This document shows positions 19,968-47,878 of a DNA stretch of 64,000 bases, piece by piece. Each line of letters begins with the position of its first letter. The first letter of the stretch is position 1. Where the stretch lies: assembly GCF_004634385.1 (NCBI RefSeq), contig NZ_CP037895.1, forward strand, positions 2,145,245 to 2,209,244, written 5' to 3'. The notes beneath the pieces are model-generated. The model saw only the letters and a program-made list of their open reading frames with translations. It had not been told where the DNA came from and made no database searches. Source of the DNA: Thermaerobacter sp. FW80 (GTDB lineage Bacteria; Bacillota; Sulfobacillia; Thermaerobacterales; Thermaerobacteraceae). The translations under genes and the position numbers were made by a program.

Positions 19968-20030
19968 GGCGCCTCGACGGGGACGAACCGGCCGGAGCGG
20001 AGTCGTCGCAGGATTCCCCGCGGTCATGTC

Positions 20031-20042
20031 AAACTATTGTTC
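20031..20042. promoter_or_regulatory. LexA/DinR-like box before thpR-recA
   Basis: AAAC-TATT-GTTC matches the Firmicute SOS consensus GAAC-N4-GTTC at all but the first base. It sits only three bases before the thpR ATG in a local A/T-rich island, where a bound repressor would block the start region. TATTGT within it could also serve as a -10 for a near-leaderless message. Confidence 0.5.
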
Positions 20043-20045
20043 GGT

Positions 20046-20663
20046 ATGACGGGAGACCGACGCGAGGGAAGGACCGGCGCCGCGTCCGACGAGCGCTGGC
20101 GGCTCTTCATCGCCGTGCCGGTGACGGGTACGGCGGCCGGTGCGCTGCGGGCGTGGATGGCGGTCGGACGTCGCGAGCGACCGGGGCTGAAGTGGGTGGA
20201 GCCCGACCACCTGCACATCACCCTGCGCTTCCTCGGCGAACGTCCGGCGGCGGAGATGCCCGCCCTGGTGGCGGCAGGGGCGCGGGTGGCGGGGGCCGCG
20301 GCGCCGGTGGAGGTGGAGGTCCGCGGCGTCGGCGGATTCCCCAGCGCCGAACGGACCCGCACGCTCTGGGCGGGGGTGGCGACCGGGGCCACGGAGCTGG
20401 CGGGGATGGCGGCGGGTCTGGAGCACGAGCTCCTGGCGGTGGCGCCGGACCTCGACCCGTTGAGCCACCCCTTCACCGCCCATGTCACCCTGGCGCGGGT
20501 GCGGGCGAGCTGGATCGACCTGACGCGATGGCCCCACGCGGTCGCCGCGCGGGAACGGCTCTGGGGTCGGCTGCCGGTGCGGGAGCTGGTGCTCTTCCGC
20601 AGCCGGCTGCGACCGGGCGGTCCCGTCTACACGCCCCTGCACCGCTGGCGCCTGGGACGCTGA
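20046..20663 (+). CDS. thpR: RNA 2',3'-cyclic phosphodiesterase (LigT/ThpR)
   Basis: 2H phosphoesterase, 205 aa. It opens 2',3'-cyclic phosphate ends of RNA in vitro; the in vivo role is uncertain. Both catalytic HxTx motifs are present, HIT at 57-59 in HITLRFLGE and HVT at 146-148 in HVTLARVR, with the usual spacing. ATG 20046 was chosen over TTG 20037. Neither has a Shine-Dalgarno site, so translation may be leaderless. It is immediately upstream of recA and downstream of the LexA-like box, so it may be damage-inducible. Confidence 0.9.
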
Positions 20664-20841: not shown

Positions 20842-21864
20842 ATGATCGAGCGGGAACGGGCCCTGGAGATGGCCCTCAGCCAGATCGAGAAGCAGTTCGG
20901 CAAGGGCTCCATCATGCGGATGGGGGAGGCGTCGTCGCGCCTCAACGTCGAGGTCATCCCCACGGGGTCGCTGGCCCTGGACATCGCGCTGGGCGTGGGC
21001 GGCATGCCCCGGGGCCGCATCGTCGAGATCTTCGGTCCCGAGGCGTCGGGCAAGACCACCGTCGCCCTCCACGTCGTGGCCTCGGCGCAACGGGCGGGGG
21101 GCGTGGCGGCCTTCATCGACGCGGAGCACGCCCTCGACCCCGTCTATGCCGAGAACCTGGGTGTGGACGTGGACAACCTGCTGATCTCGCAGCCCGACAC
21201 CGGCGAGCAGGCCCTGGAGATCGCGGAGGCCCTGGTGCGGAGCGGTGCCGTGGACGTCATCGTCATCGACTCCGTCGCCGCGCTGGTGCCGAGGGCGGAG
21301 ATCGAGGGGGAGATGGGCGACGCCCACGTGGGCCTGCAGGCACGGCTGATGTCCCAGGCGCTGCGGAAGCTGACCGGGGCCATCGCCAAGTCGCGCACCT
21401 GCCTGATCTTCATCAACCAGATCCGGGAGAAGGTCGGCGTGATGTTCGGCAACCCGGAGGTGACCCCCGGGGGCCGGGCGTTGAAGTTCTATGCCTCCGT
21501 GCGGCTGGACGTGCGGCGGGTGGAGACGTTGAAGCAGGGCGGCGAGATGATCGGCATTCGCGCGCGGGCCAAGGTGGTGAAGAACAAGGTGGCGCCGCCC
21601 TTCCGGCAGGCGGAGTTCGACCTCATCTACGGCAAGGGGATCTCCCGCGAGGGCGACCTGCTGGACATCGCCACCCAGCACGGGATCATCGAGAAGTCCG
21701 GCGCCTGGTACTCCTACGGCGACACCCGGATCGGCCAGGGTCGAGAGAACGCCCGCGAGTACCTGGTCCAGCACCCGGAGGTGGCCGACGCCATCGAGCA
21801 GCGGGTGCGCGAGCTCCTGAGCCTGGGCGGCATCCGGGCGGCCACCGCCAGCGAAGAGGAGTAG
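20842..21864 (+). CDS. recA: recombinase RecA
   Basis: Forms the strand-exchange filament on ssDNA and stimulates LexA self-cleavage. Walker A GPEASGKT at 65-72, the MAW-type opening [15 protein letters not shown], loop L1/L2 regions ([44 protein letters not shown]), and an acidic SEEE tail. ATG 20842 has GGAGGCGAGG just upstream and gives the canonical 340 aa; ATG 20827 in frame is less likely. It is followed 13 bp later by recX, a common pairing. Confidence 0.98.
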
Positions 21865-44156: not shown

Positions 44157-44708
44157 GTGGGAGCGACGTCCATGCGGCCGGGGGAAGCGGGCTGGTTCGC
44201 GGCGGCGATCGGGGCGGATCCCGGCGGGGCGCCCTGGTGGCTGGGCGCCCTGGCCTCGCTGGGCATCGTGGTGGGCCTGCTGGGTACGCTGGTCCCCGTG
44301 CTGCCCGGCCTGCCGCTGGTGTTCGTCTCCATCGCCGGCTACGCCGTCGCGACGGGCTTTCGCGTCATCTCCGCGACGGCTTTGGGCGTCATGCTCGTCG
44401 CCACCGTGGCGGGGATGGCCCTGGAGTACGGCCTCGGCCCCGCCGCCGCCCGGCGGCGGGGTGCCAGCCGAGCCGCCTTCTGGGCCGCCATTCTGGGGGG
44501 CCTCGTCGGGGGCGTCACCTTCCCGCCCTGGGGCATCGTCCTCGGCCCGCTGGCCGGGGCGGTCCTGGGGGAGCTGCTGAGCGGCCGTACGTGGCAGCAG
44601 GCGCTGGCCGCGGGCTGGACCACGGTGGTGGGCCTGCTGGTGGGCTTGCTGCTGGAGCTGGGCATCGGGCTGGCGATGGCGATCTACTTCTGGACGCGCG
44701 TGTTCTGA
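44157..44708 (+). CDS. DUF456 family membrane protein
   Basis: 183 aa with five or so hydrophobic helices covering nearly the whole chain. The conserved block GLLGTLVPVLPGLPLVFVSIAGYA and the glycine-rich GGLVGGVTFPPWGIVLGPLAGAVLGELL are hallmarks of DUF456 small membrane proteins, whose role is unknown. GTG start with GGAAGGGAGG upstream. The end of the gene is part of a tandem duplication. Confidence 0.85.
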   Translation: MGATSMRPGEAGWFAAAIGADPGGAPWWLGALASLGIVVGLLGTLVPVLPGLPLVFVSIAGYAVATGFRVISATALGVMLVATVAGMALEYGLGPAAARRRGASRAAFWAAILGGLVGGVTFPPWGIVLGPLAGAVLGELLSGRTWQQALAAGWTTVVGLLVGLLLELGIGLAMAIYFWTRVF

Positions 44709-44843
44709 AGGTGGACGCGCGTTCGGATTCTGAAGGGCGTGCCGGAAACCGTACGCACCGCGGCGGAGCGGCGGGCGCCATAGGCCGAGAAGGGCGCCGT
44801 TGGCCGGCAAGGTGGCAAGTCAGGCCGGCAAGGGGGCAAGTCA
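44691..44843. repeat. two short tandem duplications after the DUF456 gene
   Basis: TGGACGCGCGT...TTCTGAAGG occurs at 44691-44711 and again at 44712-44736 (with a 4-bp insert), spanning the stop codon. A 21-bp unit GGCCGGCAAGGKGGCAAGTCA occurs at 44802-44822 and 44823-44843. Otherwise the 44709-44967 gap holds no gene that I can support. Confidence 0.7.
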
Positions 44844-44967
44844 AGACGCCGCTTGCGCCAAGCCCACCCCCGCAGCGCCCGAGCCCGGTCCCCGACCGCG
44901 CCCTGTCCCAGCCGGGACCCGTCCCCGACCGCACCCGTCGGCCGAGCAGGGGCTCCACGGGCTCGGC

Positions 44968-45573
44968 TCATGCCATCCGGCGGAGCAGCGCCACCACCTT
45001 TCCCAGGACGCGGACGTCGCGGACCCGGATGGGCTCCATCGCCGGATTCTCCGGCTGCAGCCGGATGCCGTCGCGCTCGCGGTAGAAGCGCTTGACCGTC
45101 GCCTCGTCGTCCAGCAACGCGACGACGATGTCGCCGTCCTCGGCGGTGTCCTGGCGGCGCACGATCACGTAGTCCCCGTCCAGGATGCCGGCACCGATCA
45201 TGCTGTCGCCCCGGATGCGAAGGGCGAAGACCTCGCCTTCCGGCAGGAGGTCGGAGGGGAGGGGGAGGACGTCCTCGATGTTCTCCACCGCGAGGATCGG
45301 CCGACCCGCCGTCACCTGACCGACCAGGGGCACCGCCACGGTGCGCGTCCGCACGCCAGCCTCGCCGCGCACCTCGATGGCCCGCGGCTTCGTGGGATCT
45401 CGTCGGATGTAGCCCTTGCGCTCCAGTTGGGCGAGATAGGTGTGGACCGTCGAGGTGCTCTTCAAGCCGACCGCCTCGCCGATCTCGCGCACCGACGGCG
45501 GGTAGCCCCGCTCGCGCACGGACGCCTTGATGAACTCCAGGATCTCCCGCTGACGGCGGGTGAGTTCCTCCAA
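44968..45573 (-). CDS. lexA: SOS repressor LexA
   Basis: 201 aa. Winged-helix DNA-binding domain ([44 protein letters not shown]). The self-cleavage site is Ala89-Gly90 in QVTAGRP, with catalytic Ser124 (GDSMIGAG) and Lys161 (EATVKRFY). TTG 45573 is the likely start: it follows AGGAGGTG at proper spacing, whereas GTG 45582 overlaps that site. This start gives MEELTRRQ and puts the cleavage bond close to the Ala91-Gly92 of B. subtilis. Its promoter region contains two candidate LexA boxes, implying autoregulation. Confidence 0.97.
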
Positions 45574-45783
45574 CGCCGGCACCTCCTGCTATGGCCATCC
45601 GTCGCGCCGGCCGGGAGCCGGATCCCAGCGAGGGCCCTCGCCACGGGCCCCATGGGTCCTCGCCAGGGCCGGGCCGCCTCCTCGGTGCCCCCGACCGCCC
45701 CGCACGGTTGGTCCCCCGGAGCCGGGCCGGCCCGTCGGGGGACGTCGGGCGCCGCTAGCAGGCCGAGGAAGCGGGCCGACTGC

Positions 45784-45822
45784 CGAATACGGGACGAATA
45801 TAGGTTCTGCAAACAGGCGTTC
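45784..45822 (-). promoter_or_regulatory. lexA promoter with two LexA-like boxes
   Basis: Read on the minus strand: -35 TTGCAG (45812-45807), a 17-bp spacer, -10 TATTCG (45789-45784). GAAC-CTAT-ATTC (45807-45796) fills the spacer and GAAC-GCCT-GTTT (45822-45811) overlaps the -35. Each differs at one base from GAAC-N4-GTTC. The boxes start 15 bp apart. Confidence 0.6.
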
Positions 45823-45984
45823 CATCCGGGTATTCGGGGCCGCCGGCCCGATTCCTCCTACGCCCGGCTCGATTCCTGCTGCGCCCGTCGCGTTGCTGCA
45901 CCCTGCGCCCGTCGCGTCGCGCAGCCGCCACGGCTGCCCACCCCGGACCGCCGGCCTCCCTTCCAAAGCGTGACGAGGGAAGGC

Positions 45985-46013
45985 TTGACGAGGGAACACA
46001 CGTTCCCTATCAT
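45985..46013 (+). promoter_or_regulatory. SOS promoter of the yneA-like gene: perfect LexA box as spacer
   Basis: TTGACG (45985-45990), exactly 17 bp, TATCAT (46008-46013). The spacer contains the perfect palindrome GGGAAC-ACAC-GTTCCC (45992-46007), a full match to GAAC-N4-GTTC. LexA bound there would fully occlude RNA polymerase. Confidence 0.85.
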
Positions 46014-46057
46014 GGGGGCATCGGCAAAACGGGTGTTCGGTCGAGGGAGGGGACGGC

Positions 46058-46705
46058 ATGCTGGTGGGTCGGGCGCAGGTGCGGTGGGCGGACCGGGTGA
46101 CCCGGGGGTCGGTCCGTTCGGAGGGCCGGGGGATGCGGACGAACGCGGCGCCGACCGGCAAGACCGAGGCCTTCGGCCCCGGCGGTGGCGGAGAAGGCGT
46201 CGACCGCCTTCGCCGGCGCGCCATGCAAGCGCCGGCGGTACGGCGGCGTCGGTACCGCTGGCGGCCGACGCGGCGCCCGGCGATGGTCGGCCTGGTGCTG
46301 ATCCTCCTGCTGCTCGGGGCGCTGGGGCGGGAGAGCGAGCCGTCCAGCACGGCGCCGGTGCCGACGCCGATGGCGGCGGCCCGACTCGCCCGAGACGCGG
46401 GGCCCGCGTCCCGGATGGACCTGGCTGCCGGCATCGCGGCTGCGGGAGCCGCAGCAGGCGGTGACGAGGCCGCGGCCTCGCCGGTTCGCGGCCTGGGGGC
46501 GGTGGATCGCGTGGACGGTGACGGGGCCGTGCAGGTGGTGGTTCGTCCCGGGGACACCCTGTGGGAGGTGGCGCAACGGCTCGGCCGACCGGGTCGCGAT
46601 CCCCGCGAGGGCGTGGCGGCGATCATGGAGGCCAGCGGCCTGTCCACGGCGGCGCTGCGGCCGGGGATGGTGCTGACGGTGCCGGCCGACTGGGTCGGCC
46701 GCTGA
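46058..46705 (+). CDS. yneA: LysM membrane protein, probable YneA-like SOS division inhibitor
   Basis: 215 aa. A long basic N-terminus, a transmembrane helix (about 76-91), an Ala-rich external linker and a C-terminal LysM domain (about 158-211: VVVRPGDTLWEVAQRLG...AALRPGMVLTVP). This architecture and the divergent position beside lexA match B. subtilis YneA, which halts division during SOS. YneA itself is only about 105 aa, so the N-terminal extension is unusual and a downstream start is possible. GAGGGAGGGGA lies before ATG 46058. A perfect LexA box controls its promoter. The assignment rests on context and architecture, not on sequence identity. Confidence 0.75.
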   Translation: MLVGRAQVRWADRVTRGSVRSEGRGMRTNAAPTGKTEAFGPGGGGEGVDRLRRRAMQAPAVRRRRYRWRPTRRPAMVGLVLILLLLGALGRESEPSSTAPVPTPMAAARLARDAGPASRMDLAAGIAAAGAAAGGDEAAASPVRGLGAVDRVDGDGAVQVVVRPGDTLWEVAQRLGRPGRDPREGVAAIMEASGLSTAALRPGMVLTVPADWVGR

Positions 46706-46843
46706 CCGCCGGATCGAAGCCGGCGGCCGGTGGCAGCCGCCGGCCGCCGGCCGCTGCCGCGGGCCGCCGTCGGCCGCCGTGCACCGTTGGCGGGCAGCGG
46801 TCCGCCCGTGAGTCCGCAGCGGTCCCCAAAGTGCGCAGCCCTA

Positions 46844-46871
46844 AGTTCGCATAAGTAGCATTATGTTAACT
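46844..46871. other. dif: candidate dif site (XerC/XerD chromosome dimer resolution)
   Basis: 28-bp layout: XerC-like arm AGTTCGCATAA, 6-bp centre GTAGCA, XerD-like arm TTATGTTAACT. The XerD arm agrees with the conserved TTATGTWAACT of Firmicute dif sites, and GCATAA/TTATGTTAA also matches E. coli dif. It stands as an A/T-rich island in an intergenic region, and the coding-strand bias reverses around it. The flanks 46706-46843 and 46872-47068 hold GC-rich inverted repeats (for example GGCGGCCGG/CCGGCCGCC near 46720) but no gene. Confidence 0.82.
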
Positions 46872-47068
46872 AACGCGTGGCGAGCCGACCTCCTCGCGCA
46901 CGGCCGCCCTGGGTCGTGGGCCTTCGAGGGCACCCGCCACCCAGCCGACCGGCCGGCGCTGTTCATCAGCCTCGCCAAGCTGGTAAGCCGGAGCCGCTGG
47001 CCTTGGCCACCGGCGTTGGATCCGCGCGGCGCCGCGGCGCGGGGAGCCAACGTTACAGCGGCGACCCC

Positions 47069-47878
47069 CTACAGCGGCGACTCGGATCCGAACCGCGGCG
47101 GCCGCTTGGCGCGCAGCGAGGCCAGCCCTTCTTCGGCGTCCGGCAGCGTGAAGCCCAAGAACTCCAGGGCTGTGGACGTGTCGAAGATCGGGCCGGCCCA
47201 CCGCAACCAGTTGTTGAGCGCGTACTTGGTCCAGCGGAGGGCCGTCGGGCTGCCCTCGGCCAGACGTCGGGCGATGGACAGGGCGGCCTCCCGGGCCTGC
47301 CCGTCGTCGACACAGAGCGACACCAGGCCCATGCGTTCGGCCTGCTCCCCCGTCAGCGGTTCGTTGAGGAGCAGGTGGTACTTGGCCTTGGCCATGCCGA
47401 TCAGCAGCGGCCAGATGATGGCGGCGTGGTCGCCCGCGGCCACGCCCAGGCGGACGTGGCCGTCCAGCAGCCGGGCGCTGCGGGCCGCGACGGAGATGTC
47501 GGCGAGCAGCGCCACGGCAAGACCCGCGCCCACCGCCGGGCCCTCGATGGCGGAGACGATGGGCTTGGAGCAGTCGATCACGTTGTAGACCAGGTCGCGG
47601 GCCTCCTTCCACACCCGCACCCGCGTCTTCGGGTCCTGGATGATGGCCTCCACGAGGCGGAAGTCGCCGCCGGCAGAAAAGGCCTTCCCGGCACCCCGGA
47701 CCAGGACCACGCGCACCGCGGGGTCTTCGTCCAGGTCGCGCCAGATCCGGGTCAGCTCCGAATGGGTTTCGGCATCGACCGAATTGAGGGTCTCCGGCCG
47801 CTCGAGCACCACCTCGAGGATCCCGGGCTCCGCCCAGGCCAGCCGCAGCCGTCCATACCGCGCCCACCACGCCGACAT
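47069..47878 (-). CDS. enoyl-CoA hydratase/isomerase family protein
   Basis: Crotonase-fold enzyme, 269 aa. Motifs: [39 protein letters not shown] (oxyanion hole Gly-Gly) and [46 protein letters not shown]. The Glu pair of true hydratases is not evident (position 2 reads GVAAGDHAA), so the reaction could be isomerase, lyase or thioesterase. ATG 47878 with GAGGGGAAGGG upstream. First gene after dif on the minus strand. Confidence 0.87.

Follow-up and report, generated by a model that had tools for sequence, protein, structure and literature searches.

Organization of the lexA region

The window, by which we mean the whole 64-kb stretch of Thermaerobacter DNA analysed here, contains lexA and, as its divergent neighbour, a gene for a LysM protein (Table 1). 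The LexA protein carries both a LexA DNA-binding domain and an S24 peptidase domain, scores above the cut-off of its family model, and matches the solved LexA 3k2z in a phmmer comparison with an E value of 4.3e-42. We take its self-cleavage residues to be the Ala-Gly in VTAGRP, the Ser in RGDSMIG and the Lys in TVKRF.

The product of the LysM gene has a long basic N-terminus, a single hydrophobic stretch at about residues 75-93 (hydropathy peak at 75) and a C-terminal LysM domain. Against the YneA model NF010723 it reaches 29.2 bits, which is under the cut-off of 60 and reflects essentially its LysM part, and the gene is therefore labelled yneA-like rather than yneA. Of the features that mark YneA, we found one transmembrane segment combined with a C-terminal LysM, encoded by a gene that is divergent from lexA under LexA boxes.

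Table 1. Features of the lexA and recA regions of the window, and box-bearing standalone tnpB loci
Feature	Position or locus	Strand	Basis
lexA, SOS repressor, 204 aa, GTG start	44968-45582	-	TIGR00498 257 bits (cut-off 110.95); PF01726 and PF00717
LexA-like box of the lexA promoter, GAATATAGGTTC on +	45796-45807	-	matrix score 15.1
LexA-like box near the -35 of lexA, AAACAGGCGTTC on +	45811-45822	-	matrix score 15.5
-35 TTGACG of the yneA-like gene	45985-45990	+	sequence read and promoter scan
LexA operator 1 (predicted), palindrome GGGAACACACGTTCCC	45992-46007	+	pattern, promoter scan, matrix, simulation
-10 TATCAT of the yneA-like gene	46008-46013	+	sequence read and promoter scan
LexA-like operator 2, AAACGGGTGTTC	46027-46038	+	matrix score 15.8; counterpart downstream box in 5/5 family members
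yneA-like gene, 215 aa	46058-46705	+	LysM PF01476 34.1 bits (cut-off 20.9), residues 161-209
LexA-like box before thpR-recA, AAACTATTGTTC	20031-20042	+	best in window, matrix score 20.4
thpR-like RNA 2',3'-cyclic phosphodiesterase, upstream of recA	20046-20663	+	TIGR02258 118.3 bits (cut-off 65.7)
recA	20842-21864	+	TIGR02012 572 bits
Box-bearing standalone tnpB, own genome	L075, L076, L078, L079, L083, L087 (remnant)
Box-bearing standalone tnpB, G001	L099, L107, L110, L113
Box-bearing standalone tnpB, G003	L100, L108, L111, L114

A predicted LexA operator within the promoter spacer

The initial annotation placed GGGAACACACGTTCCC between TTGACG and TATCAT at a spacing of 17 nt, and these coordinates and letters are exact. 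It further equated the palindrome with the spacer. The palindrome does lie within the spacer, which reads AGGGAACACACGTTCCC (45991-46007, one A followed by GGGAACACACGTTCCC), but it is 16 bp long and fills 16 of the 17 bases; counting the flanking A45991 and T46008 extends it to 18 bp. Between 44500 and 47100 this is the only promoter-like match (10/12 positions; mean of 0.1 in shuffled sequence), and the 29-bp site has a GC content of 48% in a window of 76%. A role for the palindrome as a terminator or hairpin was considered and rejected, as 44500-47100 contains no terminator-like site and transcription from its own promoter is expected to begin downstream of the palindrome.

In terms of sequence, operator 1 agrees with the Gram-positive LexA (Cheo/DinR box) consensus CGAACRNRYGTTYC at 13 of 14 positions and has a perfect GAACN4GTTC core, the form given for the Bacillus subtilis LexA operator (accessible parts of PMC2248561 and PMC4234289, respectively). 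Its outer base pair is G/C, where C/G is usual. The window holds GAACN4GTTC once, at operator 1, against an expectation of 0.24; because at least one such site also arose in 21 of 100 shuffles, the box by itself is weak evidence and not improbable. The combination of box and promoter, by contrast, is improbable, since a box within a promoter spacer occurred in none of 200 windows simulated with a first-order Markov model.

The clean on/off switch originally described is not borne out, as a second LexA-like box lies downstream of the expected start and two more face lexA, so that no single operator accounts for the region. If transcription of the yneA-like gene begins at A46020, operator 2 would span about +8 to +19, just downstream of the expected start. 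On the lexA side, the box at 45796-45807 sits by eye in the spacer of a weak minus-strand TTGCAG-17-TATTCG promoter that the promoter scan did not report, and an AAACN4GTTC box occurs at a position comparable to 45811-45822 in most relatives. The lexA leader (45583-45790) is about 165 nt longer than that of L020, with the boxes at 214 here against 49 in L020.

Conservation of the layout

Among 41 genomes searched, 37 had LexA matches, and the best 30 of these 37 genomes, our own included, gave the loci that were compared. In 18 of the 30 (own included), lexA has a LysM motif next to it; by the pattern used, the remaining 12 lack one. Fifteen of these best 30 loci have a strong box within a promoter spacer of 16-18 bp on the LysM side, and 14 of the fifteen have the LysM motif. 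Expressed by LysM locus, the layout is present at 16-18 bp in 14 of 18, two more (L021 and L022) have it at a spacer of 19, and two (L033 and L041) do not have it at the thresholds used. Across the 30 loci, 15 of 78 strong boxes fall inside a LysM-side promoter spacer, whereas 200 shuffles of the flanks averaged 0.225 and never exceeded 2. Each of the five loci of the family has the order TTGAC, box, TA...T and then a second downstream box, with changed box centres and with spacers of 17, 18, 19, 19 and 18; spacer length is thus not fixed at 17.

By sequence comparison, the box-in-spacer layout is conserved at the orthologous place and across the class. The lexA–yneA switch with its putative operator inside the promoter spacer thereby extends across the deep-branching class to which Thermaerobacter belongs.

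LexA-like boxes in the window and the genome

For scoring, a LexA matrix was built from 70 boxes that precede lexA in 29 relative loci; this genome contributed none of them. As the training boxes were selected for at most one mismatch to GAAC/GTTC, there is circularity in the core of the matrix, but it does not stem from this genome; the analysis nonetheless yields a usable LexA matrix for the class of Thermaerobacter. Seven matches in the window score at least 7, at 20029 (20.4), 46025 (15.8), 45809 (15.5), 45794 (15.1), 45992 (14.8), 11171 (13.7) and 14395 (12.5). Five reach at least 14, compared with a mean of 0.2 per simulated window over 20 trials in which single maxima rose to 16.5. Four of the five are located in the intergenic region of lexA and the LysM gene; the remaining one is in front of thpR-recA. 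The 16-mer TCAAACTATTGTTCGG of this last box is identical in 4/4 Thermaerobacter genomes. Of the 30 recA loci examined, most of those outside Thermaerobacter lack a strong box within the 1.5 kb inspected.

These scores do not bear out the suggestion that operator 1 defines the LexA box of this organism. At 14.8 it is the lowest of the five strong boxes in the window, below that of thpR-recA (20.4) and the three others of its own region (15.1-15.8), and its outer G/C pair is atypical. GGGAACN4GTTCCC occurs at three places in the 3.04-Mb genome and at none in the reversed control; it was rejected as a definition of the LexA site of the organism, given that the other two sites score 9.5 and 7.9 and that one of them falls within an open frame.

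The genome scan with GAACN4GTTC that had been recommended does give an excess, with 44 places against 14 in the reversed control, but the pattern misses the four other strong boxes in the window, including that of thpR-recA. It was accordingly set aside as a regulon finder, since the boxes before lexA and before thpR-recA and operator 2 all escape it. The strict form CRAACRNNYGTTCG is found at two places in the genome, neither of which is the yneA-like box or the recA box. Dropping two duplicated C2 sites leaves 42 distinct GAACN4GTTC sites, nine of which have a matrix score of at least 18. Six of these nine are at tnpB elements (L065, L052, L066, L062, L012 and the remnant L071); the others precede a Y-family-polymerase-like frame (IMS; L054), separate an Rv2578c-like radical SAM gene from uvrC (L018), and lie inside a T2SSE gene (L058).

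At about 1501-1557 of L018, on the radical SAM strand, TTGACC-17-TACAAT holds an imperfect box, GAACGGCCATTC, in its spacer and is followed downstream by a perfect one, GAACACGTGTTC; the Rv2578c-like protein encoded there scores 329.6 bits, below the cut-off of 430. In L054 (1454-1512), TTGACG-17-TACAAT has GAACACATGTTC after it, where the Y-family-polymerase-like frame begins.

Boxes at standalone tnpB genes

In three Thermaerobacter genomes, 14 standalone tnpB copies were found whose 5' end is intact, and GAACN4GTTC precedes every one of them (Table 1), with ATAT, AGAT, AAAT or ACAT as its centre. It is absent at tnpB in 6/6 tnpA-linked copies of this genome (L077, L080, L081, L082, L084 and L085). 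In the standalone copies that were read, the box is situated inside a 17-bp promoter spacer, as in L052 (TTGACA CGGAACATATGTTCTGG TATGTT). Over the 14 copies, 8/8 core columns and 3/4 centre columns are invariant, as opposed to 53/138 other columns of the element; the sequences for this count were extracted by the box itself, although the same copies had been found earlier by tnpB alone. As the copies are relatives, they are not independent observations. Moreover, all four standalone tnpB genes of G003 carry a stop and yet have kept the box, an observation compatible with descent no less than with selection.

On these predicted sites, it is quite possible, if short of probable, that the box-in-spacer design places standalone tnpB (IS607-type without tnpA) under LexA repression, such that numerous copies of a gene for an RNA-guided nuclease would switch on together in the SOS response, at a time when homing or copy retention would profit most from single-stranded DNA and repair. 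Were this so, the SOS response would be tied to the control of an RNA-guided nuclease gene. A derivation of the standalone tnpB box from a TnpA site is also possible. The listings from the literature searched, which included papers that name both TnpB and LexA, showed no publication on LexA or SOS control of tnpB, and no paper in them joined IS607 with 'SOS response'.

Upstream of IS607-type tnpA, about 560-574 nt before tnpB, L081, L084 and L085 have AAACATATGTGC (score 16.8); among the five tnpA-linked loci compared, L077 has a variant of it (14.4) and L101 has none. This region contains phased ACATA repeats, and similar imperfect palindromes are present in four actinobacterial relatives (L123, L126, L130 and L132). 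We do not claim AAACATATGTGC as a LexA site, in view of these relatives and of the repeats, which could be TnpA sites; together, AAACATATGTGC and the ACATA repeats before tnpA may form an array bound by TnpA that looks similar to a LexA box.

Proposed switch and alternative explanations

Taken together, the sequence layout, the identities of the genes and the conservation make it very probable that 45992-46007 serves as the principal LexA operator of an SOS gene for a cell-division inhibitor of the YneA type, a gene that adjoins lexA and is transcribed away from it. The initial reading of the site as a LexA operator for the LysM gene is thereby strongly supported, through the divergent lexA, the conserved layout and the YneA-like gene. 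A LexA dimer bound between the -35 and -10 elements would be expected to keep the housekeeping RNA polymerase off the promoter, and a second dimer on operator 2, just downstream of the start site, would tighten repression, while the two boxes facing lexA would provide feedback of LexA on its own gene. When DNA is damaged, RecA filaments would be expected to induce LexA to cleave itself, which would release both genes and lead to synthesis of the LysM membrane protein. To judge from YneA of B. subtilis, this protein probably stops cell division, in that it would hold back septal peptidoglycan synthesis; the accessible text of PMC13396833 describes YneA as blocking this synthesis through FtsW and as requiring its LysM.

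With respect to the gene product, the promoter and its LexA control could be real and the LysM protein instead be an SOS-induced cell-wall or spore-coat factor. We regard this as unlikely. The protein does fall below the YneA cut-off and has a weak SafA-type match, which recurs in 6 of 16 aligned proteins, but its gene is beside lexA, it joins a membrane stretch to a terminal LysM, and 16/16 aligned LysM neighbours of lexA match the YneA model, the best at 1.3e-17. This alignment covered 16 of the 18 LysM neighbours and left out L021, where the choice of start gave a fragment, and L048, which is at a contig end.

With respect to the site, binding of the palindrome by a dimeric repressor other than LexA appears highly improbable, given that the palindrome agrees in core and centre with the Gram-positive LexA consensus, that a canonical LexA box occupies the corresponding position in relatives, and that the two further GGGAACN4GTTCCC sites elsewhere in the genome are poor as LexA sites. 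The existence of those two sites, and the outer GGG/CCC arms that are unusual for LexA, are what such a repressor would have in its favour. That the palindrome arose by chance in GC-rich intergenic DNA and regulates nothing is scarcely credible: the frequency of GAACN4GTTC in shuffled windows would allow it, but it is already contradicted by the failure of box and promoter to coincide in any simulation and by a layout conserved across the class. The LexA operator of a yneA-type gene thus remains our preferred reading of 45992-46007.

Comparison with known systems

LexA control of mobile elements has precedents in the transposase genes of ISCR (rcr) and Tn5, as far as the available portions of PMC13393415 and, for Tn5, PMC2806898 (a secondary source) describe them. 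The standalone tnpB genes are like these in having a LexA-like box at the own promoter of the mobile element, and unlike them in that the Thermaerobacter case is a standalone tnpB with a Gram-positive box that is a putative LexA site.

The literature searched yielded no paper on Thermaerobacter together with LexA. The Thermaerobacter locus is a classic Gram-positive lexA–yneA pair, ordinary in kind. For B. subtilis and Clostridium thermocellum, the accessible sections of PMC8457756 report lexA and a yneA-like gene in divergent orientation together with LexA sites, and those of PMC6851548 report comparable lexA synteny in other Gram-positive bacteria. The locus resembles B. subtilis lexA (dinR)-yneA in its divergent lexA and LysM membrane protein gene, its GAACN4GTTC boxes and its several operators (PMC8457756 and PMC13396833, in the parts available), and differs in its 215-aa protein with a long basic N-terminus, the G/C outer bases of the box and a window of about 76% GC. 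It is likewise similar to C. thermocellum Clo1313_1450 / LexA_1449, where a yneA-like gene is divergent from lexA and the LexA sites are conserved; according to the same portion of PMC8457756, three LexA sites lie upstream of lexA in that organism, and its sites are backed by DAP-seq, whereas those of Thermaerobacter are known from sequence alone. A broader parallel exists with Staphylococcus sosA, Mycobacterium chiZ and Corynebacterium divS, SOS-induced division inhibitors beside lexA (PMC6851548, available part), although SosA and DivS, unlike the Thermaerobacter YneA-like protein, have no LysM.
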